From Prevotella sp. (GTDB taxonomy: Bacteria > Bacteroidota > Bacteroidia > Bacteroidales > Bacteroidaceae), in contig JAFZCU010000154.1 of NCBI GenBank assembly GCA_017556145.1, forward strand, positions 1 to 46,506: DNA of 46,506 nt, given 5' to 3'. Numbering within the stretch: position 1 is the stretch's first letter; each line of letters starts with the position of its first letter. The notes under the pieces are model-generated. The model did no database searches. It had not been told where the DNA came from and worked only from the letters and a program-made list of their open reading frames with translations. A program made the translations under genes and the position numbers. Below are positions 6,534 through 31,508 of this stretch, one piece after another.

Positions 6534-7691
6534 ATGAATCAGGCAACCCTCGATTTTATCCGCGAACATGCTGAGGCCGATGTGCGACGGCTGGCTCTTC
6601 AGGGAACCAAGAACCCTGAGGTGGATCTGACCTTTGCCCTCGAGCAGATAGCAGGTCGGCAGAAGGCGAAAACCAAGCTTCCTTCATGGGCAGCTATCGA
6701 CGGTATTGTCTGGCCTCCTCACCTCTCGATGGAGCAGTGTTCGAGTGAGCAGACGGCCCGATACAAGGCACTTATTGCCGGAAAAGGGGCACTTATCGTG
6801 GATCTGACGGCTGGTTTCGGCGTAGATATGGCATTTATCTCGCAGGGTTTCCAACGGGCCATCCACGTGGAGCGACAAGCCCAGCTTTGCACCATTTCAT
6901 CGGAGAATTACAAGCTTCTTGGGCTGAATCATATCGAGGTGGTCTGTGCCGATGGTGTCGACTATCTGCACCAGCTTGACCATGCCGACCTGATTTATCT
7001 CGACCCTGCCCGACGGGATGATCATGGGGCACGCACCTATGGCATTGCCGATTGCACACCTAATGTCCTCGAGCTTCGTGATGAGTTATTGGCAAAGGCT
7101 GACCGTGTGATGCTGAAGCTCTCGCCCATGCTCGACTGGCGCAAGGCGGTGGAGGATCTGGGCCACGTCAGCGAGGTGCATATCGTTTCTGTGGATAACG
7201 AGTGCAAGGAATTGCTGCTTATTCTTTCGAAGGATGAAAAGTCACTTAGGCTTTTTTGCGTGAACAACGACCAAGTATTCGAGGCGAGTGATCTCACCCA
7301 CGAAACATCTTCCCTCATCCCTCATCCCTCTTCCTTCTTATTCGAGCCCAACGCCTCTATTATGAAAGCGGGTTGTTTCGCAGCGCTGGAGCAGCGGTTT
7401 GGCGTACAGCAGCTCGACAAGAACAGCCACCTGTTTGTGGCCGACCATGATATCAGCGACTTCCCTGGCCGTCGTTTCATCATCGAGAAGACCACCTCGA
7501 TGAATAAGCGTGAACTGAAAGCCGCCCTCGCTGGCATCGGCCGAGCCAACATCACCGTGCGCAACTTCCCCATGTCTGTGGCCGAGTTGAGGAAGCGCCT
7601 GAAGCTGAAAGACGGGGGCGATCTCTACCTCTTCGCCACCACCTTGGCCGACAATCAGCACCAGCTGTTTCTTTGCAGGAAAACAGAATAA
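6534..7691 (+). CDS. THUMP-like-domain class I SAM-dependent methyltransferase
   Basis: 385 aa. A helical N-terminus is followed by a Rossmann methyltransferase core: motif I LIVDLTAGFGVDM (about residues 87-99), acidic IHVERQ, then motif IV DLIYLDPARR, a DPAR variant of the N/DPPY type. The C-terminal third (KRELKAALAGIGRANITVRNFPMSVAELRKRLKLKDGGDLYLFAT) looks like the THUMP-like RNA-binding domain found after such enzymes in Bacteroidetes. RNA is the expected substrate; the exact target is unknown. A 28-base heptamer array (7312-7339) sits inside the frame and encodes a low-complexity loop (SLIPHPSSF). A length change of one unit would shift the frame. Confidence 0.88.
   Translation: MNQATLDFIREHAEADVRRLALQGTKNPEVDLTFALEQIAGRQKAKTKLPSWAAIDGIVWPPHLSMEQCSSEQTARYKALIAGKGALIVDLTAGFGVDMAFISQGFQRAIHVERQAQLCTISSENYKLLGLNHIEVVCADGVDYLHQLDHADLIYLDPARRDDHGARTYGIADCTPNVLELRDELLAKADRVMLKLSPMLDWRKAVEDLGHVSEVHIVSVDNECKELLLILSKDEKSLRLFCVNNDQVFEASDLTHETSSLIPHPSSFLFEPNASIMKAGCFAALEQRFGVQQLDKNSHLFVADHDISDFPGRRFIIEKTTSMNKRELKAALAGIGRANITVRNFPMSVAELRKRLKLKDGGDLYLFATTLADNQHQLFLCRKTE
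7312..7339 (+). repeat. In-frame heptamer array, four units
   Basis: Four consecutive 7-mers: CCCTCAT, CCCTCAT, CCCTCTT, CCTTCTT, wholly inside the methyltransferase gene. A 7-bp period is incompatible with codon phase, so slippage would alter the reading frame. Confidence 0.75.
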
Positions 7692-13456: not shown

Positions 13457-13465
13457 ATAAAAAAA

Positions 13466-13493
13466 GGTAAAAGGTAAAAGTGAAAAGTGAAAA
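13466..13493. repeat. Heptamer array upstream of dusB
   Basis: Four 7-mers: GGTAAAA, GGTAAAA, GTGAAAA, GTGAAAA. The array spans the position of the -33 region of the dusB promoter, so unit gain or loss could change promoter spacing. Confidence 0.75.
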
Positions 13494-15302: not shown

Positions 15303-15337
15303 GTTTAGAGTTTACTGTTTATAGTTTAGAGTTTGCC
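15303..15337. repeat. Heptamer array (GTTTNNN family) across a stop codon
   Basis: Five 7-mers beginning GTTT: GTTTAGA, GTTTACT, GTTTATA, GTTTAGA, GTTTGCC. The stop codon of the minus-strand metalloprotease (15326-15328) is part of the array. It belongs to the same sequence family as the S23 cassette ends at 29083 and 30679. Confidence 0.75.
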
Positions 15338-18715: not shown

Positions 18716-20197
18716 TTATTCGTTTGTATTTAATGTTAGATTCGGATTCTTGTCACGGGCGGAGTGGGGGAACGGGATGATATAGAGGCGGGAATCCGGA
18801 AGCAGGGTATAGGTCTGCTTAGGCCGAGTCTCGCTGGCATTCACCACCGGATACTCACGGGTAACAGTTTTGGCATATTCAGACTCCAGGTTGAAACGCT
18901 TCAAGTCGAAGAAACGGTTGAAGCCGAAGAGTAGCTCCTTACGGCGCTCATTGATGATGGTCTTGATCATCTCCACCTGCGATGCGGGGGTGGCGATGGC
19001 CGTTTCGTTACCACTGAGACGCTTGGCCCGCAGCTGATTGAGATAGTTGGTGGCTTCCGGGAGATTGTTCAAACGGGCATTGGCCTCTGCCAGGATGAGA
19101 TAGACCTCAGCGGTACGCAACCCCACCGACATATAGGTAAACCGGTTGGTAGTCGTGGCTGGCGTCCAGATGGCACCGCCGGAGTTATAGTCGAACCAGC
19201 TGGTGATGCTCGTTCCCGTATCTCTAAGGAACAGGCTGTATCGCAGGTCGTTAGGCTCAAAGAGCGCCTTCAGTTCCGGACTGATCAGTCCATAATAGTA
19301 GAGTGCTGCCTGTTCGGTGGTCCAGCCGCTGCCCATCCAGTGATAGCTCAGCACCTCGGGATTGTTCTCGTGCGAGTAGTTGGTATAGCGGGCCACACCA
19401 CCGGCATCCTTGATGACGTTGTAGTCAACAAGCGTCGGATTCAGTTTGAGGGCAGCCTCTGCAGCCGTCTTGGCCTTCTCCCAGTCGCGATGGAACAGAT
19501 AGACCTTCGCCAGCAGGGCATAGCCGAAGGCACGGTTAGGATGGTAGATGTTCACGGGTTTCTCCTGCAACAGGGCCACCGATTCTTCCAGATCCTTGAT
19601 GATAAAGTCGTACACCTCTGCGACCGTTGCCTTGACAGGCACTTCCTCCAGGGTGTAATGGTCCATGATGGCCACACCGCCGTCCTGGGCTGCCGTTGCG
19701 GGGTCGTAGGCCTTGGCGTAGGTGTTCACGGCGAGGAAATGGTCGAAGGCACGGAAGGTACGGGCCTCGGCTTTGGCCAGCGCCTTCATGTCGGCAGCGC
19801 CCTGCGTCTCGTCGATATTGTCGATTACCAGGTTCGCGCGCATAATGTAGGCATACATATTCTCATAGAGATTGTTGTCCGACAGGATGGTGCGGTCGGC
19901 TTTCTCGTTGAAGGTGTAGTTGATGCCGTGGAACGACAGGTTCTCGTAGCCGAGGATGTTCGACTCCTTGGCCCAGGCGTCATCGGTCAGATGCCAGTAG
20001 GCTGCGGGGTTATAGCATCGCATGGGATTCACGATCAACTCATAATATTGGCTGGTGGAATCGACGGTGATAGCCCCCTTGGGCGTGATGTCGATGTAAT
20101 TGTCGCAGCTTGACAGGAGACAGGAGACAGGAGTCAGGAGTAAGTAGATAACTCCCGCCATCCACCAAGTCCTCTTTTTATATATCTTTGTCATCAT
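18716..20197 (-). CDS. SusD/RagB-family nutrient-binding outer-membrane lipoprotein
   Basis: 493 aa. A lipoprotein signal (LLLTPVSCLLSSCDN, lipobox LSSC) is followed by the SusD fold: YIDITPKGAITVDSTSQYY, the TPR-like RTFRAFDHFLAVNTYAKAY, YHPNRAFGYALLAKVYLFHRDWEKAKTAAEAAL, and C-terminal INERRKELLFGFNRFFDLKRFNLE. SusD lids the SusC barrel and captures ligand at the cell surface. Part of the signal peptide is encoded by a GACAGGA heptamer array (20112-20146), and the start ATG abuts another array (20198-20228). The start is ATG 20197; the frame extends to a TTG created by the repeat. RagB-type peptide import fits the metalloprotease neighbour; this is inference. Confidence 0.93.
   Translation of the reverse strand: MMTKIYKKRTWWMAGVIYLLLTPVSCLLSSCDNYIDITPKGAITVDSTSQYYELIVNPMRCYNPAAYWHLTDDAWAKESNILGYENLSFHGINYTFNEKADRTILSDNNLYENMYAYIMRANLVIDNIDETQGAADMKALAKAEARTFRAFDHFLAVNTYAKAYDPATAAQDGGVAIMDHYTLEEVPVKATVAEVYDFIIKDLEESVALLQEKPVNIYHPNRAFGYALLAKVYLFHRDWEKAKTAAEAALKLNPTLVDYNVIKDAGGVARYTNYSHENNPEVLSYHWMGSGWTTEQAALYYYGLISPELKALFEPNDLRYSLFLRDTGTSITSWFDYNSGGAIWTPATTTNRFTYMSVGLRTAEVYLILAEANARLNNLPEATNYLNQLRAKRLSGNETAIATPASQVEMIKTIINERRKELLFGFNRFFDLKRFNLESEYAKTVTREYPVVNASETRPKQTYTLLPDSRLYIIPFPHSARDKNPNLTLNTNE
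20112..20146. repeat. Heptamer array inside the SusD signal-peptide codons
   Basis: Plus-strand units GACAGGA three times, GTCAGGA, GTAAGTA. On the coding strand they specify the LLTPVSCLLS stretch just before the lipobox Cys. Loss or gain of one unit would put the susD start out of frame with the mature protein. Confidence 0.8.
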
Positions 20198-20228
20198 AAT
20201 TATCAATTATCAATTGTCAATTATCAAT
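20198..20228. repeat. Heptamer array between susC and susD
   Basis: Units AATTATC, AATTATC, AATTGTC, AATTATC, then AATTA. The array fills the whole susC-susD gap, from the susC stop codon (20228-20230) to the susD ATG. Confidence 0.8.
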
Positions 20229-23200
20229 TAGAACGCAGTGCTGAGTCCGATGCTGAAAGTCTTGGGCTGCAGAAGGGTGCGCGTACCAGAGTTGAGCGAG
20301 TACGACTCAGGATCAATGTCGTTGCCTGCTGCCGACCAATAGAAGAGATTGTTCACCTGTAGTGTCAGGCGCGTCTGTCCGATACCCAGCTTCTTCGTGA
20401 CAGCGTCAGGCAGATGATAGGCCAGGTTGATGGAGCGCATCTTGATGTAGTCTGCAGACTTCACCTGCTGGTCGCAGTAGCGCCACCATTCCGAGAAGGT
20501 CGAGGCATACTGCTGCGTCTCTGTCGACATTTCATAGAAATGCTTCACGGTATGGTCGTTCACGTGATCATCCGTCATCTGATAGCTGTTCATGTCGGTG
20601 GCATCCATGCGCAGCTTATTACCGCCGGAGAACACGAAGAGTGTATTCAGCTCCAGCTCCTTCCAGCGGAGGTTCAGCGAGAGCGAGCCATTATAAATAG
20701 GAATCAGACTACCCATATTCACCAGTGCGTCTGTGCCTTTCAGGGTTGAGGATACCGTCACCTCTGTCGGCTCACCGTTGGCGTCAAACTTCGCCATCTC
20801 GTTGCCGTCGGCATCAAGGATGACCGGATAGCCGTTCACCACTCGGCTCAGACGGTAGGCCCAGAGGGTATTATAGCCTGTGCCCTCGATAAAGTAATTG
20901 GCGGGAGCCTGGATAAAGCTCGATGCGATATCGGTGGAGGCATGGTCTACACGCAGCATCTTGTTGTTGTTCCAGGCGATGTTGAATCCGGCAGAGAGGT
21001 TCCAGTCCTTCGTACGCAAGATATTGGCGTTCAGCACGAACTCCACACCCTGGTTACGCATCTTGCCGTTGTTGATGACGCGGTTGCTGGTGCCGAGGGT
21101 CGAATCAAGATACTTACGTACCAGCAGGTCGTCACCCACACGGTTGTAGAATTCAAGTGAGCCGCTCAGCAGGTTGTTGAACAAACGGTAGTCAAGGCCG
21201 ATGTTAAATGTCGACGTTTTCTCCCAACGCAATTTGGGGTTGGGCAGGTTGTCGTCGGTATAGCGCAGATATTGAGTGTTCGTGGGGTCGTTGCTCTCGA
21301 TACGATAGCGTGCCACGAAATAGGTGGTGGAACTCTGGTCCACATTACCATTCACACCGTATGTCAGTCGCAGTTTCAGGAAGTCGAGCCAAGAGATACC
21401 CTTCATAAACTGCTCCTCGGTGATGTTCCATCCAGCACCTACAGACCACAGGGGATGGTGCTGGTTCTTTGTGTCGAGTCCGAAGAGGTCGGCCTCATCC
21501 CAGCGGATACTGCCCGTGAGGTTGTAACGGTAGAGATAGTTGTAGCCTACGTTGGCATAGAACGAGGCGTAGCGGTGGAAAGTCTCCGACTTGCTTGTGG
21601 CGAGTCCGGAGAAGCGCTGCGTATTGTTATAGACCAGACTCTCCCAACCTGTGGAGTAGAGCGAGTTCCAGTCCATACGGACGGAGGTCAGTGCCTGGTC
21701 GTTGTAGCCGTACATTAGCTGTTCGATGCTCTGTGGCGTACGGTTCTCGCGCAACTCGAAACCCATGATAGCATTCACATTATGCTTAGAGTCAAGGAAA
21801 CTGCGGTCGAAATTCAGTTGGTTTCGGAAGGTATAACGCCGTGAATTGTTCGTCTGCTGCTTGTAGCGTCCGCCATTGGCCAGCAGGCATTCTCCGCTCT
21901 GGTCGATGAAGGCATTGTGCGTCATACGCATCTGGTAGGTCGAGGCGTCATCGTAGGTCTCGCTGCGGGTCTGGGCCCATTCATACTGGAACATGACGGT
22001 GTACTTGAAGAACTTCAGGAACTTGGCTTCGAGATTCACAAACGGGCGCAACCGCACATTGCGGCTCTTGGTAAGACTCTCGTCGAGCGATTCCAGCACA
22101 TTAAATGTAAAGGGCATCAGTTCCTCATTGCCCGTGGCCTCCACTGCCCGGATCTGCGACAGGTTGGTGGCACCGCCGGCATAGCCGCTGACATTGACAT
22201 AAGGGCTGTAAACGAGGTTACCTTGGTCGTCGACAATGCGGGCATAACGCTCCTGCATCGTGTAGTTCACGTACGAGTTGTCGGGTTTCGTGGCATTCGT
22301 AAACCTTCCGTCGACACCCAGTTTCGCGGTGAGCCATTTCGAGAGGTTAAAACTGCTCTTCACATAGAGCGAGAAAGCGTCGTTGTTGTCGTTCTTCGCA
22401 CGGTTCTTGTCGTGCTCGTAGTTGAACGAGGCAAAATGGCTCGACTGCTTGCTGCTCTGCGAGAGGGATATGTTATAGCGCTGTGTGACTGCTGTGCGCC
22501 AGGCCAGGTCGCGGTATTGCTCATAGTAGTCGTTCTTCCGCCACTGGTTCAGCGTCTGGTCTACCTCCGACTGTGTGATGCGCCCTTCTGCCTGGTCGCG
22601 GTAGAGTTGATAGAGCGGGGAATAATAGTTGGCATTATAGGTGTCGAAGAGCGTTCTCACACTACCACTGTTTTTGACGCGCGCGTTATAGACGGCCGTT
22701 TCGTAATCGATGATGTCGGAAGTCGAGGCATAATGCATCCCGTCGAAATTGGGCTTCGTCGAGATATACCAGTCGGCATTCACGTTCACCTTCACCTTCT
22801 CGCCCTTGCCCTGCTTGGTGGTCACCACAATCACACCGTTGGCAGCCAACGCGCCGTAGATAGAGGCGGCAGCGGCATCCTTCAACACCGTCACCGACTC
22901 CACGTCGTAGGGATTGATCTCGTTGAGCGTCATGTTGGTGGCCATGTCGTCGACCACAATCAGAGGCTGCGTACCCACGCTGTTTGAGAAGGTGCCAACA
23001 CCTCTCAGGATGGGACTGTTCTCGCCGGTATTGGGGTTGACCTCCATCCTGAGTCCGGCCACCTGGCCTTCGAGGGCCGACATGATATCCTTGTGCATCA
23101 CGCGGTTCAGCTTTGTGGAGTCCACATGGCCAAAAGCGGCTGTGGAGCGCTCACGGCTCAGTTTCTGATAACCCGTGGAGATGACGACGGTCTCAGCCAA

Positions 23201-26028: not shown

Positions 26029-27661
26029 AGTGCTCTTGTTGCTGATGTTCGCATCAGCAACAAGTCTTTTTGCCCGTCCGCAACTGCATAAGCTCGACAT
26101 CCGCGTGGTGCTGAGCCATAATGGTGACGCCACAATCACGGAGACCCGCTACATGAACATCGACTCCGAGGGTACCGAGTGCTACATCGGTCTGGGTGGC
26201 ATGGGCCAGAGCGAGGTACGCGACCTGAGGGTAATTGACGAGACCGGACGTGAGTTTGAGAATATCGGCAGTTGGGACATCAACCGCTCCCGTAGCTGGA
26301 AAGAAGGCAAGTGCGGCATCGTCACCAAGCATGGTGGCTACGAACTCTGCTGGGGGCTTGGTGAGAGTGGTGAGCGTACTTATATCACCAGTTATACCAT
26401 CACAGGCCTTGTGCGTTCCCATCCCGATGCCGATGCCATCCGTCACGTATTCCTTGATGCCGATGTTTCTCCCAAGCCCGACAAGGCTTACCTCACCATC
26501 GAGGCCGAAGAGGATTCCGTTTTCCTGACCGAGGAGAACAGCGGTATCTGGGGTTTCCGTTTCGGTGGCGAACTCGGCTATGACAATGGCAAGATGGTGG
26601 CCTACAACACCGAATCCTTCGGCCGCAGTGGCGCCCTCTATATCATGTGTCGCTTCGACAAGGGCCTCTTCGACCCTTGGTATCAGGAAGAAGAGACGTT
26701 CGAGACGAAGAAAGAGCAGGCATTCGAGGGCAGCGACTACGTGGGTGGATATGGTGAAAGCGGTGGCAGCGACGAGGGCTTATGGGCCTTTGTCATGATG
26801 GTTATCGGCTTCTTCGTCATGCCCATCGTTGGTGGCCTCTGGTATTTCATTTATGTCTGGCGAGCCCGTAAAAAAGTCAATAAGGATCTGCTCTGGTATC
26901 GCGACATCCCCTTGAAGGGCAATCTCCAGCAGGCCAACGACATGCTCAATGCCTATAAATACGTTGGTACAGACTACAACAACTTGCTCTCCGCCTGTGT
27001 TCTCAAGCTCATCAACATGGGGGCTATCTCCATTGAGTCGCGTTTGAATTCGAAGGGCAAAACTGAGCAGAACTTCGTCATGCATGAGTTGCCCAACTAT
27101 GGCGAACAGCCCTTGCTCTTGCGTAAGATCCACAATATCTTCAAGACTGCTGCCGGCTCCGATACCATTCTCGAGCCTCGTGAACTGAAGTCCTTTATGC
27201 GGAGTTCCAAGAACGAGAGCATCACTGACTCGTTTATCGACACCCTCCACACCAAAACAGGCATTCGTGCCTATAAGGACCGTCTGGAAGAGGTGCGTCA
27301 GGTGTTCGGACTCAAGAAGTTCCTCCAGGAGTTCACGCTGCTTGACGAGCGTCATGTCCATGAAGTGGCGCTGTGGAAGGACTACATGATCTACGCCACT
27401 CTCTTCGGCATCGCCGACCAGGTGATCAAGGATATGAAGAAGATCAATCCTGAGTACTTCAATATGGATCAGGTGGCCAATCAGATGGCAGACAACATGA
27501 CCTTGCCGATGATCTACTCCACCCTCCACAACAGCACCTCGCGTGCGGTGGCTAACAAGGCAGCGCGTGAAGCCCGTGCCTCAGGCCATGGCGGCCATTC
27601 CTCATGGGGTGGCGGCGGTGGCGGCTTCTCTGGCGGCGGCTTCGGCGGCGGCGTCAGGTAA
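26009..27661 (+). CDS. DUF2207-family membrane protein with Gly-rich tail
   Basis: 550 aa from the ATG at 26009 (MKRSRNKVLLLLMFASATSLFA, signal peptide). An extracytoplasmic domain (LDIRVVLSHNGDATITETRYMNI... SYTITGLV) precedes a membrane segment (about residues 252-275, LWAFVMMVIGFFVMPIVGGLWYFIYVW). A cytoplasmic domain (NDMLNAYKYVGTDYNNLLSACVLKLINMGAISIE) ends in a glycine-rich tail (GGGGGGFSGGGFGGGVR). The order is that of DUF2207 (YciQ-like) proteins, whose role is unknown. The longer open frame to 25931 lies inside lemA and is rejected. Together with LemA it probably forms an envelope-associated complex. Confidence 0.9.
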   Translation: MKRSRNKVLLLLMFASATSLFARPQLHKLDIRVVLSHNGDATITETRYMNIDSEGTECYIGLGGMGQSEVRDLRVIDETGREFENIGSWDINRSRSWKEGKCGIVTKHGGYELCWGLGESGERTYITSYTITGLVRSHPDADAIRHVFLDADVSPKPDKAYLTIEAEEDSVFLTEENSGIWGFRFGGELGYDNGKMVAYNTESFGRSGALYIMCRFDKGLFDPWYQEEETFETKKEQAFEGSDYVGGYGESGGSDEGLWAFVMMVIGFFVMPIVGGLWYFIYVWRARKKVNKDLLWYRDIPLKGNLQQANDMLNAYKYVGTDYNNLLSACVLKLINMGAISIESRLNSKGKTEQNFVMHELPNYGEQPLLLRKIHNIFKTAAGSDTILEPRELKSFMRSSKNESITDSFIDTLHTKTGIRAYKDRLEEVRQVFGLKKFLQEFTLLDERHVHEVALWKDYMIYATLFGIADQVIKDMKKINPEYFNMDQVANQMADNMTLPMIYSTLHNSTSRAVANKAAREARASGHGGHSSWGGGGGGFSGGGFGGGVR

Positions 27662-27667
27662 ATCCAG

Positions 27668-27702
27668 AAATGGCTGGCATCGGGAGATGTCAGCCATTTT
27701 TG
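27668..27702 (+). terminator. Intrinsic terminator after DUF2207
   Basis: A 14-bp stem (AAATGGCTGGCATC with GATGTCAGCCATTT, one G-T wobble) and a GGGA loop end in a T-run, 7 bases past the stop codon. Confidence 0.8.
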
Positions 27703-27725
27703 AAAACATTAAATAATGTGAATTA

Positions 27726-27758
27726 TTTGTTTTTGTGTTCGATTTGCACTATCTTTGC
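27726..27758 (+). promoter_or_regulatory. Promoter of the DUF2851 gene
   Basis: TTTG (27726-27729), 20 bases, then TATCTTTGC (27750-27758), 26 bases before the ATG at 27785. Confidence 0.75.
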
Positions 27759-27784
27759 AGCGTCAAACCAATAAATTCAATGCT

Positions 27785-29083
27785 ATGGAGCAACTACTTC
27801 ATTATGTTTGGAAGCATAAACTGTTCCCTTTGAGGGAGCTGGAAACGACCGACGGCAAGCACGTCGAGGTGATCGATCCGGGCCTGCACAACAGGAATGC
27901 AGGGCCTGACTTCTTTAATGCAAAGGTGAATATCGGCAGAACGTTGTGGGTGGGTAATGTCGAGATTCACGATAAGGCGAGCGACTGGTATCTGCACCAT
28001 CATGACCGCGACCCACGGTATAATAATGTGGTGCTTCACGTGGTGGGCGAGGTGGATACCGATGTACAGAATGCCCAGGGAGAGTATCTTCCGCAGATGC
28101 AGTTGGATGTGCCGCAGCAGGTCAGCGAGCACTACGAGGAACTGCTCAAGACCGACAGCTATCCCCCTTGTTACAAGGTGATTCCCGAGTTGACGCGACT
28201 CAAGGTGCATGCTTGGATGGCGGCCTTGCAGACAGAGCGGTTGGAGCAGAAGACAGAGGCGATACGCCATCGTGTCGAACTGTGTGGCGGGTCGTGGGAG
28301 GATGCCTATTTCGTAACCCTCGCCCGTAACTATGGCTTCGGCATCAACAGCGATGTGTTTGAGCAATGGGCGAGGGTGGTACCCCTCAGTGCGGTGGCAC
28401 ATCACCGTGATGACCTCTTCCAGATAGAGGCCATCTTCATGGGTCAGGCGGGCCTGTTGGAACTGGAGGCGGTGCCCGACTATTACCAGCAGGTGGCACT
28501 CAACGAAGGTTATTTTGCCAAACTCCGCAACGAATACCTCTATCTGGCGCATAAGTTCTCGATGAAACCGATGGATTTTAAGCTTTGGCGGTTTCTCAGG
28601 CTGCGGCCGCAGAACTTCCCGCATATCCGGATCTCACAACTGGCGAGCCTCTATTATCAGCAGAAGACGGGGCTGAGTCAGATGTTGGAATGTGAAACCA
28701 TCGACCAGTTGAAGGCTCTCTTCAGGTCGCATGTCACACCGTATTGGGAGACACATTATACCTTCGGCTCAACGAGTTCGAAGAATGAGAAGCACCTCTC
28801 TTACGGTTCGCTCAATCTGTTGATGATCAATACAGCGGTGCCGATGCTCTTTGCCGTGGGAAGGCATCAGGGGAAAGAGGTGCTGTGTGACAGGGCTTTC
28901 GACTTCTTGGAGCAGTTGAAGGCGGAGAACAATTATATCACCCGTATGTGGCTTCAGGTGGGTCTGCCTGTTGAGACGGCCGGTGACTCTCAGGCGCTCA
29001 TCCAGCTGAAAAAGGAATATTGTGATAAGAAAGATTGTTTAAGATGTCGCTTTGGATATGAGTTCCTCCAGAGGAAGGAATAG
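27785..29083 (+). CDS. DUF2851 family protein
   Basis: 432 aa, start MEQLLHYVWKHKLFPL. The family signature is clear: VEVIDPGLHNRNAGPDFFNAKVNIGRTLWVGNVEIHDKASDWYLHHHDRDPRYNNVVLHVV. A C-terminal Cys cluster (YCDKKDCLRCRFGYEFLQR) follows. The N-terminal part has the look of a PD-(D/E)XK-like nuclease fold (D of GPDFFNA, E of GNVEIH), but enzymatic function in this family is not established. The stop TAG (29081-29083) is the first three bases of the S23 cassette boundary, so the cassette may supply the stop codon. The start is fixed by the promoter at 27726-27758. Confidence 0.9.
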   Translation: MEQLLHYVWKHKLFPLRELETTDGKHVEVIDPGLHNRNAGPDFFNAKVNIGRTLWVGNVEIHDKASDWYLHHHDRDPRYNNVVLHVVGEVDTDVQNAQGEYLPQMQLDVPQQVSEHYEELLKTDSYPPCYKVIPELTRLKVHAWMAALQTERLEQKTEAIRHRVELCGGSWEDAYFVTLARNYGFGINSDVFEQWARVVPLSAVAHHRDDLFQIEAIFMGQAGLLELEAVPDYYQQVALNEGYFAKLRNEYLYLAHKFSMKPMDFKLWRFLRLRPQNFPHIRISQLASLYYQQKTGLSQMLECETIDQLKALFRSHVTPYWETHYTFGSTSSKNEKHLSYGSLNLLMINTAVPMLFAVGRHQGKEVLCDRAFDFLEQLKAENNYITRMWLQVGLPVETAGDSQALIQLKKEYCDKKDCLRCRFGYEFLQRKE

Positions 29084-29549
29084 TTTATAGTTTAAAGTTT
29101 ATAGTTTATAGATGATTACATTTACAAATAAATAAAGTAATGATACAGTATAATTTTTCATTTCGTAAATTGAATGTTTATCAGATATCAAGGACATTGG
29201 TTAAGGATATTTACGGATTAGTGAATGCTTTTCCTCCTAATGAGAAATATGCTTTGGGTGATCAAATGAGGAGAGCAGTTGTGTCAATACCTTCAAATAT
29301 CGCAGAAGGAACTGCAAAAACCTCGCCAAAAGATCAGTTTCGCTTCTTAGAAATATCTTATGGTTCTCTCATGGAATTAATGTGTCAGACGGAAATTGCA
29401 CTAGATTTACAATACATCAATCAGGATCAATTTTCTCTCATCGAGACAGAAATTGGTGATATTTACAAGATGTTGTCCTCTATGCAGGCTGCTTTAAAAA
29501 CTCGCATACAAGGTAATCATCTATAAACTATAAACTTTAAACTATAAAC
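29083..29549. mobile_element. 467-bp S23 cassette bounded by a perfect 37-bp inverted repeat
   Basis: The left end (29083-29119) is four 7-mers GTTTATA, GTTTAAA, GTTTATA, GTTTATA plus GATGATTAC. The right end (29513-29549) is its exact reverse complement. The only gene inside is the four-helix-bundle S23 protein, and its last codons and stop lie in the right arm. The transcript would fold into a 37-bp stem with the ORF in the loop, the same topology as S23-encoding intervening sequences in 23S rRNA. No transposase or target duplication is seen. Mobility is inferred from the architecture and from a second, ORF-less copy at 30679-30811. Confidence 0.6.
29140..29526 (+). CDS. Four-helix-bundle protein (S23 / 23S rRNA intervening-sequence protein family)
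   Basis: 128 aa. Family motifs are FSFRKLNVYQISRTLVKDIY, FPPNEKYALGDQMRRAVVSIPSNIAEG and FLEISYGSLMELMCQTEIALDL, arranged as four amphipathic helices. The fold is shared with Avd of diversity-generating retroelements and with proteins encoded in 23S rRNA intervening sequences. It binds nucleic acid in some relatives, but its biological role is unresolved. Base composition is clearly more AT-rich than the flanking DUF2851 and dprA genes, which indicates a foreign origin. The reading frame ends inside the right arm of the inverted repeat. No promoter of its own is evident; it may be read through from the DUF2851 gene. Confidence 0.92.
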   Translation: MIQYNFSFRKLNVYQISRTLVKDIYGLVNAFPPNEKYALGDQMRRAVVSIPSNIAEGTAKTSPKDQFRFLEISYGSLMELMCQTEIALDLQYINQDQFSLIETEIGDIYKMLSSMQAALKTRIQGNHL

Positions 29550-29554
29550 ATAAT

Positions 29555-30679
29555 ATGGAACAGGAATTATTCTATGCAATGGCGTTGACGCGCCTGACGA
29601 ACTTTAACTTCCAGCAGGCACTGGAGTTGTATAGGGCAGTGGGAAGTGCGCAGGGGATTTATGAGCACAGAAATGAGATTGGCGATGTTGTTGAGGCATG
29701 TTCTCCCCGTCTTCGAGAAGCCCTGAAAGACTGGGGTGAGGCGATGAAACGGGTAGAATTTGAACTAAAGTTCATGCAGGAGCATCAGATTCGGGCGCTG
29801 ACACCCTTGGATGATGACTATCCCCAACGACTCTGTGAATGTGCCGATGCACCCCTTGTTGTTTATTATCGTGGCAATGCCGACTTGAATCAGTCCAAGA
29901 TTGTTAATGTAGTGGGAACCCGTCAATGTACGCAGTATGGCAAAGATCTGATCCGTCGGTTTATGAGTGACCTAAGGCAGATGTGTCCGCAGGTGCTGGT
30001 GGTCAGCGGTCTGGCCTACGGTGTGGATATCTGTGCCCACAAGGAGGCCTTGGCCTGTGGTTTTGAGACAGTGGCGGTGCTGGCGCATGGGCTTGACCAG
30101 ATTTATCCCTATCGGCATCGCGAGACGGCTGTCAAGATGCTGGGGCATGGCGGTCTGCTGACGGAGTTTATGAGTCAGACGAATGCCGACAAGCAGAATT
30201 TCGTACGTCGAAACCGTATTGTGGCAGGTATGTCAGATGCCTGTATCGTTGTGGAGAGTGCCGCCAAGGGTGGGGGACTCATCACGGCAGATATTGCCCA
30301 AAGTTACGATCGTGCCGTGTTTGCCTTCCCTGGGGCAGTAGGCATGACCTATAGCGAGGGCTGTAATCATCTGATACGCGACAATGGCGCGGGGCTGATT
30401 ACCTGTGCCGAGGATTTTGTCAAGGCGATGGGCTGGCAGGATAAGATGCTGCGACAGCAGGCCCATGCCGAGGGCATTGAACGGAACCTGTTCGTAGATC
30501 TTTCGCCAGAGGAGAGCAGTATCGTGAGTCTGCTCCAACAGACCAACGACCTGCAGCTGAACATCCTCAGCGTGAAGACAGGCATCCCCATCGGACAACT
30601 GACGGCCTTACTCTTCCAATTAGAGATGAAGGGGGTGGTGAAGCCGCTGGCTGGAGGGATGTATCATCTTATGATGTAG
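29555..30679 (+). CDS. dprA: DNA-processing protein DprA
   Basis: 374 aa. An N-terminal SAM-like helical region is followed by the Rossmann core: NVVGTRQCTQYGKDLIRRF, VLVVSGLAYGVDICAHKEAL (GxAxGID motif), AVLAHGLDQIYPYRHRE, LLTEFMSQTNADKQNFVRRNRIVAGMSDACIVVESAAKGGGLITAD, and FPGAVGMTYSEGCNHLIRDNGAGLI. A C-terminal winged helix (LQLNILSVKTGIPIGQLTALLFQLEMKGVV) completes the usual architecture. DprA loads RecA on incoming single-stranded DNA during transformation. It starts 5 bases after the S23 cassette. Its stop TAG overlaps the start of the next GTTT heptamer array. Confidence 0.96.
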   Translation: MEQELFYAMALTRLTNFNFQQALELYRAVGSAQGIYEHRNEIGDVVEACSPRLREALKDWGEAMKRVEFELKFMQEHQIRALTPLDDDYPQRLCECADAPLVVYYRGNADLNQSKIVNVVGTRQCTQYGKDLIRRFMSDLRQMCPQVLVVSGLAYGVDICAHKEALACGFETVAVLAHGLDQIYPYRHRETAVKMLGHGGLLTEFMSQTNADKQNFVRRNRIVAGMSDACIVVESAAKGGGLITADIAQSYDRAVFAFPGAVGMTYSEGCNHLIRDNGAGLITCAEDFVKAMGWQDKMLRQQAHAEGIERNLFVDLSPEESSIVSLLQQTNDLQLNILSVKTGIPIGQLTALLFQLEMKGVVKPLAGGMYHLMM

Positions 30680-30811
30680 TTTATAGTTTAAAGTTTATAG
30701 TTTATAGTTGATTACCAAATAAGTCATTCTTTTCGGCGGGAGAGCTAAAAAAGAGCTGCAGAGGGAGTAGCAGACTAATCATCTCTAAACTCTAAACTTT
30801 AAACTCTAAAC
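30679..30811. repeat. 133-bp ORF-less relative of the S23 cassette (MITE-like)
   Basis: The left arm 30679-30715 is identical to the S23 cassette left arm except for one base (TTGATTAC for ATGATTAC). The right arm 30775-30811 is the reverse complement with several A-to-C changes (TCTAAAC for TATAAAC units). The 59-base centre contains no ORF. Like the S23 cassette, it begins at the final G of a TAG stop codon, here that of dprA. It looks like a non-autonomous or decayed copy. Confidence 0.65.
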
Positions 30812-30817
30812 TAAATA

Positions 30818-30836
30818 ATTTGGCGTTTTGCCAAAT
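30818..30836. promoter_or_regulatory. Operator-like palindrome over the -33 box
   Basis: ATTTGGC, GTTTT, GCCAAAT: 7-bp perfect arms that include the TTTG -33 element, suited to a repressor site. Alternatively it is a minor RNA-independent inverted repeat left from the adjoining element. Confidence 0.4.
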
Positions 30837-30851
30837 AAATGCTACCTTTGC
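30819..30851 (+). promoter_or_regulatory. Promoter of the thioesterase gene
   Basis: TTTG (30819-30822), 20 bases, then TACCTTTGC (30843-30851), 7 bases before the ATG. The -33 box is part of a palindrome. Confidence 0.75.
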
Positions 30852-30858
30852 AGCCGTT

Positions 30859-31263
30859 ATGAAGGAAAAGTATATTTTTGAGACCCGGATGCAGGTGCGC
30901 GACTATGAGTGCGATATCGAGGGCATCGTGAACAATGCCAATTACCTGCACTATTGCGAGCATACCCGTCATCTGTTTCTGAAGCAGTGCGGCTTGAGTT
31001 TCGCAGAGATGCACGAGAAGGGTGTAGATGCTGTAGTGGCCCGTATGTCGATGCAGTTTAAGACACCGCTGAGGCCTGACGACGAGTTTGTGTCACGGCT
31101 TGGCTTGACCAAGGAAGGCATTAAATACGTGTTCCACCACGACCTCTATCGCGTAGCGGATGATAAGCTCTGTTTCCGTGCCAACGTGGAACTGGTGTGC
31201 ATTGTAGACGGCAGGCTCTCCGATAGTGAGGACTACAACCGCGCTTTCGCACCATACATATAG
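30859..31263 (+). CDS. Acyl-CoA thioesterase, 4HBT hot-dog family
   Basis: 134 aa. It has the hot-dog fold signature of YbgC/FadM-like thioesterases: MQVRDYECDIEGIVNNANYLHYCEHTRHLFLKQCG, with the catalytic-region D/N residues (normally D-x-x-GIVNNANY) intact. Conserved ARMSMQFKTPLRPDDEF and a final strand (ELVCIVDGRL) follow. It hydrolyses acyl-CoA or acyl-ACP thioesters; the chain length is unknown. The start at 30859 follows the -7 box by 7 bases, so the transcript is nearly leaderless. A strong terminator at 31273 ends the unit. Confidence 0.92.
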   Translation: MKEKYIFETRMQVRDYECDIEGIVNNANYLHYCEHTRHLFLKQCGLSFAEMHEKGVDAVVARMSMQFKTPLRPDDEFVSRLGLTKEGIKYVFHHDLYRVADDKLCFRANVELVCIVDGRLSDSEDYNRAFAPYI

Positions 31264-31272
31264 TAAAACATA

Positions 31273-31309
31273 AAAGATCCGCAACCTGCTGATGGTTGCG
31301 GATCTTTTT
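31273..31309 (+). terminator. Intrinsic terminator after the thioesterase gene
   Basis: A 14-bp perfect stem (AAAGATCCGCAACC / GGTTGCGGATCTTT) with a seven-base loop runs into a T-tract. It is symmetrical enough to act on the convergent smalltalk transcript too. Confidence 0.85.
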
Positions 31310-31354
31310 CTTCAGTTTGGCGACATATTCATTAGAAAAATGCCAGACCAATCT

Positions 31355-31468
31355 TTAAAAGATCACGGGACCTCGTCCCATGCAGCTTGTAGTTGTGATG
31401 GCCGTCAGAAAGGCCGTGAGTGCAGCTACTAACACCTTCGCTCCAATCTCAATGATTCTTTTCTTCAT
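31355..31468 (-). CDS. Smalltalk-type small membrane/lipoprotein peptide
   Basis: 37 aa: begins MKKRIIEIGAKVLVAALTAF, continues with a hydrophobic ALTAITTTSCM-type core and ends MGRGPVIF. The pattern of a KK start, one hydrophobic helix and a TTSC lipobox-like end is that of the short smalltalk proteins that accompany HU-like DNA-binding genes in Bacteroidales. Here it sits downstream of and on the same strand as such a gene, separated by a REP-like palindrome. The Cys at residue 29 could be lipidated, leaving a peptide of only nine residues. Function is unknown. Confidence 0.7.
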   Translation of the reverse strand: MKKRIIEIGAKVLVAALTAFLTAITTTSCMGRGPVIF

Positions 31469-31508
31469 ATTCATTTACTTTTTACGTCCGAATCTCTAGT
31501 GGCGTTGG

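Follow-up and report, generated by a model that had tools for sequence, protein, structure and literature searches.

According to the Coxiella study that describes them (PMC4990558), intervening sequences (IVS) of 23S rRNA carry an S23 open reading frame (ORF) in the sense direction, have complementary ends that form a stem, contain heptamers ahead of the ORF and are patchily distributed. In the Coxiella IVS, three GACAGAT heptamers and a degenerate fourth precede the S23 ORF, and the terminal stem is 28 bp long. The authors take the RNA to matter more there than the S23 protein (S23p) and recall an older view in which the ORF of the IVS served mobility; in their account the role of S23 and the origin of the rRNA intervening sequences are still open (PMC4990558). 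In Flavobacterium columnare, according to PMC5524665, an S23-type gene is located between the genes for guanylate kinase and nicotinate-nucleotide adenylyltransferase.

REPINs, as presented by Bertels and Rainey (2011, PMC3116915), are short palindromes that are dispersed as hairpin-forming inverted doublets and as singlets; several repeat groups occur per genome, each with its own gene flanked by the repeat, which is the RAYT gene encoding a tyrosine transposase. GTAG and CGTC tags of such palindromes are named in the title of PMC3733652. The TAACTGA heptamers of Beggiatoaceae, Cyanobacteria and Bacteroidetes (MacGregor 2015, PMC4679880) stand mostly forward before start codons, and some are found reversed behind stop codons. 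In that account horizontal spread is suspected, with no mechanism evident, and a translational role is proposed for heptamers just upstream of start codons. The cassette described below resembles these heptamers in the 7-nt unit and in the placement of its repeats; it differs in its inverted arms and its S23 gene, neither of which is mentioned in the text of that account as searched for these terms. No paper joining S23 to inverted heptamer arrays outside rRNA was found in searches of an open-access library.

The window, a stretch of 46,506 nucleotides of DNA, comes from a Prevotella genome bin and contains an S23 gene between DUF2851 and dprA:

27755-29083, forward strand: upstream neighbour, DUF2851 ORF (TTG start, as listed mechanically)
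29083-29119, forward strand: left arm, four GTTTANA heptamers with the inner tail GATGATTAC; the TAG stop codon of DUF2851 ends in the first G of the arm
29140-29526, forward strand: S23 ORF (TIGR02436, PF05635; four-helix bundle), 128 aa; its last codons and TAA stop lie inside the right arm
29513-29549, reverse strand: right arm, reverse complement of the left arm without a mismatch
29555-30679, forward strand: downstream neighbour, dprA

DUF2851, S23 and dprA share one strand. Over 37 nt each arm is the exact reverse complement of the other; extended to 40 nt, the agreement is 98%. The preliminary description had claimed reverse-complementary arms of four heptamers plus a tail, an S23 gene between them whose last codons fall in the right arm, and a left arm placed at the final G of a TAG stop, all of which is borne out, the units being GTTTANA and the tail GATGATTAC. 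It had also treated the arms as private to the cassette, which did not hold: they are part of a dispersed repeat family, and inverted arrays of 7- or 8-mers flank S23 genes in general.

The inverted-repeat score, defined as the best inverted match between the 250 nt upstream and the 250 nt downstream of S23, is 31 at the cassette. In windows shifted within the same set of S23 loci (n=520) the 99th percentile was 12.5 and the maximum 20.5, which excludes a chance origin of the cassette arms. When flanks were swapped between loci (n=666), the 95th percentile was 12.5, the 99th 17.7 and the maximum 21. The predicted RNA fold of the cassette has a 37-bp stem with fully paired arms (z -6.4; minimum free energy -134.5 kcal/mol vs -99.7 +/- 5.5 kcal/mol in 100 shuffles). 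No Rfam match was obtained within positions 27000-31500, and the cassette sits between protein genes, outside any 23S rRNA gene. With the IVS, as described for Coxiella (PMC4990558), it shares the sense S23 ORF, the complementary stem-forming ends, the heptamers before the ORF and the patchy distribution. Unlike the IVS, it is located between protein genes and has perfect heptamer arms on both sides; these arms are shared with a dispersed family, with several versions per genome, and its protein is conserved and not in decay.

The points on which the preliminary description said that it would fail came out in favour of mobility. The unit is not present in all relatives. Seven further loci (L033-L039) have S23 with arms between DUF2851 and dprA, and genome G359 has another. 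dprA was found in 25 of the 26 genomes searched, eight of which carry S23 at this site and six of which (G018, G031, G118, G135, G042 and G045) have DUF2851 next to dprA without S23; in the other 11, DUF2851 is not adjacent. G031 is the sister of the present genome on the dprA tree. As a separate observation, the empty site of this closest relative (L171) contains a different heptamer array, GTGAATA/GTGAAAA, between DUF2851 and dprA. S23 presence as a simple vertical trait was considered and rejected: with 15 genomes on the dprA tree it requires four changes, a number that 150 of 500 label shuffles do not exceed, and the carriers do not cluster. Gains and losses are inseparable under vertical loss or re-gain at one site. 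The unit also occurs elsewhere with S23. In G368, an S23 gene of 58% identity with arms of the same, GTTTACGG type is situated between sufB and sufC, both assigned by family matches above the cut-off; a match with an E-value of 1e-36 or better occurs in only 3 of 398 genomes of the genus.

Exchange at the arms is seen in a comparison of G151 and G153, in which DUF2851 and dprA are 93% identical and S23 72%. For DUF2851, S23 and dprA, pS is 0.31, 0.72 and 0.24 and pN 0.012, 0.185 and 0.017, respectively. The flanks are near-identical as far as the outer boundary of the left arm, and outside the right arm they differ by a short indel; the cassette was therefore replaced at about its arms. Between G154 and G155 it is DUF2851 that differs (pS 0.62), with S23 and dprA almost the same (0.01 and 0.06), the pattern of a different, larger exchange than a cassette swap.

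Nor do the two arms drift independently of each other; both switch together from the TATA to the TACA type. In the six loci of equal arm length (L039 and L169, with unequal arms, were left out of the count), 97.3% of the cells pair and five pairs are changed on both sides. All 500 shuffles fall below the observed count of changed cells (10 vs 4.5 in shuffles) and the observed covariation score (0.154); the five changed pairs (vs 3.9) are not exceptional, as 158 of the 500 shuffles reach this number. The co-change is essentially one TATA-to-TACA shift common to L036 and L037 and represents few events. Gene conversion, replacement of the whole cassette and selection for pairing would all give this result. 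The earlier claim of a mobile IVS-like unit outside rRNA therefore stands in part. Empty sites, a second site and an arm-bounded swap speak for it; against it, no target-site duplication was recognised by eye between occupied and empty sites, in genomes that are not strains of one species. The tests support the view of the cassette as an IVS-like, exchangeable unit outside rRNA.

Flanking inverted arrays turned out to be general among S23 genes, a finding broader than the one first reported. Inverted arms score over 12.5 at 107 of 134 S23 loci, over 17.7 at 68 and over 20.5 at 50. The loci over 12.5 comprise 10/10 orthologues, 60/69 in other Prevotella, 15/17 in other Bacteroidota, 16/30 in a phylum sample, 5/7 in Nitrospirota and 1/1 in Chthoniobacter. 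The sample is not random because it consists mostly of the best-scoring matches of the respective searches; to the phylum sample, 30 genomes contributed one locus each, their top match. L068 and L226, which score equally, are separate places in a single genome. Omitted from the 134 were L065, whose match is partial, and L233, a stretch with two S23 genes. No such arms were found at 27 loci, including 14 of the 30 in the phylum sample. An Rfam scan of 20 of these 27 revealed no rRNA, for which the short stretches (flanks of about 1.5 kb) may be the reason. The sole Rfam match near them was an L13-Bacteroidia ribosomal leader (L240, 306-381, minus strand).

The best period of the 107 arms was 7 in 62, 14 in 11 and 8 in 24 (together 97/107), compared with 7, 3 and 5 (15/107) in 107 control stretches. 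For the 121 arrays at loci scoring at least 18, the median number of units was 4.4 (period 7), 4.5 (period 8) and 4.15 (period 9); the number of units rounds to four in 53 and to five in 37 of them. A distinct tail at the inner end is frequent, for example GATGATTAC, GAGATTAC and GACTTTAC. If heptamer repeats were simply common between the genes of these bacteria, they might flank S23 by coincidence. The window by itself contains eight runs of period 7, along with one of period 8 and none of period 5, 6, 9, 10 or 11, and the flank-swap control reaches 21. Arguing against this possibility, which we regard as very remote, is the proportion of shifted windows that score over 12.5 (1%, vs 107 of 134 S23 loci), as well as the fact that arms match within a locus and not between loci: the median 5-mer sharing between arms is 0.59 within a locus and 0.00 between loci. 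Arm sequence tracks the relatedness of the S23 proteins (Mantel r 0.52, p 0.001, n=90). Arm sharing of at least 0.4 was found in all 25 pairs above 80% S23 identity, in 80% of the 49 pairs at 70-80%, in 23% of the 122 pairs at 60-70% and in at most 3% below. This correlation would fit descent as well as cognate recognition.

The present genome contains several S23 genes, each with its own repeat. Five TIGR02436 matches occur in the bin, three of which are typical S23 genes. The first has GTTTATA arms and lies between DUF2851 and dprA; the second (contig C133) has GTCAGGA arms and lies between an outer-membrane efflux gene and lpxA; the third has CATTGAC arms, with serC on one side and on the other a gene resembling phosphoglycerate dehydrogenase, its score being under the cut-off. 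Dispersal is also seen for the second and third repeats, with 87+32 and 12+9 matches, respectively (control 0 in both cases), mostly as arrays of about four units, with some inverted pairs. The window contains one array of the second repeat:

20112-20147, forward strand: array of the second repeat family (GACAGGA/GTCAGGA), which flanks the second S23 gene of the genome

The other two TIGR02436 matches (L269 on contig C105, L270 on contig C28) are parts of ORFs of 272 and 226 aa and represent a partial S23 domain with no comparable arms; L269 adjoins low-complexity repeats. Three further period-7 arrays of the window, at 7308-7339, 13462-13493 and 20198-20230 (TCATCCC-, AAAGTGA- and ATTATCA-like), match none of the three S23 repeats, and no S23 partner was found for them among the five S23 matches of the bin.

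In profile searches the cassette protein matches TIGR02436 (E 6e-33, 113 bits, cut-off 24) and PF05635 (E 1e-34, 119 bits, cut-off 33.8). Weak matches to Avd-type families, NF033474 (34.6 bits, cut-off 80) and PF22296 (24.5 bits, cut-off 40), fall below the curated cut-offs; the Avd accessory protein of diversity-generating retroelements (DGR) is thus a distant sequence relative of S23. No family other than the S23 and Avd types matches the protein, and it is not a REP-associated tyrosine transposase. To our knowledge, no catalytic site is known for S23. Sequence searches retrieved two solved relatives, both with five chains per entry, namely 2gsc (E 9e-21) and 2rld (E 0.004); an S23-type protein of Xanthomonas is called a homopentamer in the Coxiella paper (PMC4990558). 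Over 35 pairs among nine related S23 genes, with synonymous sites near saturation, the median pN/pS is 0.23, a value indicating that S23 is under purifying selection and the protein conserved. TIGR02436 matches occur in 88 of 118 Bacteroidota genomes, with up to 16 per genome, and in none of 14 named control genomes. Both neighbours are co-directional with S23 in 96 of 122 cases (100/125 by another rule). For comparison, the figure is 9 of 23 for other genes at these loci and 14 of 35 for triplets of the window. At two loci, L039 and L168 (in G156 and G359), one heptamer has been lost from the right arm and the S23 frame extends to a longer C-terminus.

Beyond the cassette, a 20-nt array pattern has 119 forward and 97 reverse matches genome-wide, as opposed to 0 and 1 for the reversed-pattern control (overlapping positions with at most two mismatches, in a bin of 3.46 Mb that is 83% complete with 5% contamination). 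The arm core with its tail is present in 31 copies in this genome and in 178, 87, 79, 96, 246, 12 and 12 copies in the seven other carriers at the same site; G155 and G156 carry S23 yet have only 12 each. Among 150 genomes of the genus, at least 14 arm cores occur only in the present genome (G000), G018, G118 and G135, the others having 0 to 5. G018, G118 and G135 contain 38, 14 and 18 arm cores, respectively, without this type of S23 and with an empty DUF2851-dprA site, so that the arm copies outlast S23 or do not need it. As the carriers and the dispersed arms fall in one clade, the association is confounded by descent.

In 60 fetched regions, which were picked via arm matches and not at random, 28 convergent arm pairs are less than 700 nt apart. 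Of these, 26 form short hairpin elements of 91-258 nt and the other two are S23 cassettes; S23 is the sole gene seen within the pairs. Longer interiors are seen in L140 and L134 of G151, whose paired arms span 258 and 189 nt overall. One short element follows dprA in the window:

30679-30715, forward strand: left arm of a short hairpin element without S23, behind dprA; its first G completes the TAG stop codon of dprA
30775-30811, reverse strand: right arm of the same element, 32/37 nt complementary to the left arm

A GLQGNQL-like reading at the right ends of short elements had given rise to the idea that they are deletion derivatives of the S23 cassette. This idea was dropped: only 4 of 34 interiors match the cassette ends, where about two are expected (a match being one above the 95th percentile of the null), and all four share a single ACTGGAGGCCG motif. 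In contrast to the relation of MITEs to insertion sequences, most of the short copies are not internal deletions of a long copy. Also rejected as a cassette were converging arms 1.3 kb apart on contig C84 of G118, which belong to two opposed genes, each with its own unpaired arm.

The persistence of array populations in genomes without S23 would suit an explanation in which S23 is a passenger. The arrays would grow by slippage or be moved by an unrelated enzyme, either a reverse transcriptase or a transposase of RAYT or other type, and S23 would be kept since the paired arms allow harmless excision from the transcript, as in the IVS. The 37-bp stem of the predicted RNA fold and the preference of the Coxiella workers for the RNA over S23p (PMC4990558) agree with it. 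The purifying selection on S23 argues against a passenger. So do two further facts: within one genome each of the three typical S23 genes has a different dispersed repeat of its own, and S23 is the sole gene seen within the 28 close arm pairs. We consider this explanation quite unlikely.

When the arm ends of the 60 regions were counted again under a looser rule, 68 were paired and 36 unpaired. The window provides an unpaired example:

15303-15333, forward strand: unpaired GTTTANN array

Near 28 of the 36 unpaired arm ends an ORF of at least 70 aa opens, compared with 157 of 600 random positions, and at 17 of the 36 an ATG in the arm's own tail is the possible start of such an ORF. Unpaired ends also stand inverted behind stop codons, 5 of the 36 with a stop only and 8 with both. 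TsaD (L163) is led by an unpaired arm, as is HisA (L156), whose start lies a few bases further in. By inspection, unpaired arms were seen directly before genes in L163, L156, L114, L119, L145, L148 and others, and starts at the tail ATG give N-termini of the form MIT..., as in TsaD and several signal-peptide-like proteins. An arrangement of this kind might reflect post-transcriptional regulation, with S23 as the regulator, the arrays as its binding sites in untranslated regions, autoregulation through its own arms and copies spread by other means. The ORFs opened by unpaired arms, 17 of them through the tail ATG, and the translational role that MacGregor proposed for TAACTGA heptamers upstream of starts (PMC4679880) favour this explanation, which we nevertheless judge rather unlikely. 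Arrays inverted behind stop codons and hairpin doublets are unexpected for a site in sense RNA, and the cassette swap, the second site and the private repeat of each S23 lineage are left unexplained.

The S23 arrays resemble the REPIN/RAYT system of Bertels and Rainey (PMC3116915) in that the dispersed repeats occur as hairpin-forming inverted doublets and as singlets and in that a genome contains several repeat groups, each with its own gene flanked by it. They differ from it in that the gene encodes S23 instead of a tyrosine transposase and in that the repeat is a tandem array of 7- or 8-mers (at this cassette heptamers with the inner tail GATGATTAC), not a short palindrome tagged with GTAG or CGTC. 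In the model that we favour, and hold with restrained confidence to be the probable one, S23 and its inverted arrays constitute an element in which S23 reads its own array and promotes its copying or exchange. The element comprises S23 between inverted arrays of about four units of 7 nt (elsewhere also 8-9 nt), each array with a distinct inner tail, and is lodged in the sense direction between genes of one operon. Its architecture, its presence or absence at the site, its second site, its exchange at the arms, the conservation of its protein and the dispersal of the cognate repeat as hairpin doublets and singlets are all observed. The cassette may be seen as the mRNA counterpart of the S23-bearing IVS of 23S rRNA and as a representative of a class in which each S23 lineage has its own repeat sequence.

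We infer that S23 recognises the array that flanks it and has a part in the spread or exchange of that array. If S23 forms a ring of five four-helix bundles, as in the solved relatives, it could read its array at one unit per subunit; that five subunits would suit about four units with a tail is suggestive only. Binding would presumably be to a hairpin or to single-stranded nucleic acid, and S23, together with a nuclease or polymerase of the host, would allow the arrays to be copied or exchanged. S23 would thus be to the heptamer arrays what RAYT is to REPINs. Its sense position in the operon may permit the element to use the transcription of the operon, and pairing of the arms may allow excision by RNase III, as in rRNA. 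A broader proposal, which we advance tentatively and would not yet call probable, is that S23 (23S_rRNA_IVP) is the trans-acting factor of a widespread class of repeat elements, each S23 ring reading its own array of about four 7-9-nt units with a tail, one unit per subunit, and driving the copying or exchange of that array in the manner of RAYT but without a transposase domain; the rRNA IVS would be members that landed in rRNA and the heptamer arrays of Bacteroidota its non-coding members.

The link between S23 and the arrays gives both a testable partner, since every S23 gene would identify the sequence that it targets. In MacGregor's account of the heptamers the means by which such arrays spread has stayed open (PMC4679880). 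Ordinary genes also take start and stop codons from the arrays, whose spread would therefore shape gene ends and operons. If S23 moves the arrays, bacteria would possess a class of repeats that works through a small ring protein which is not a transposase.
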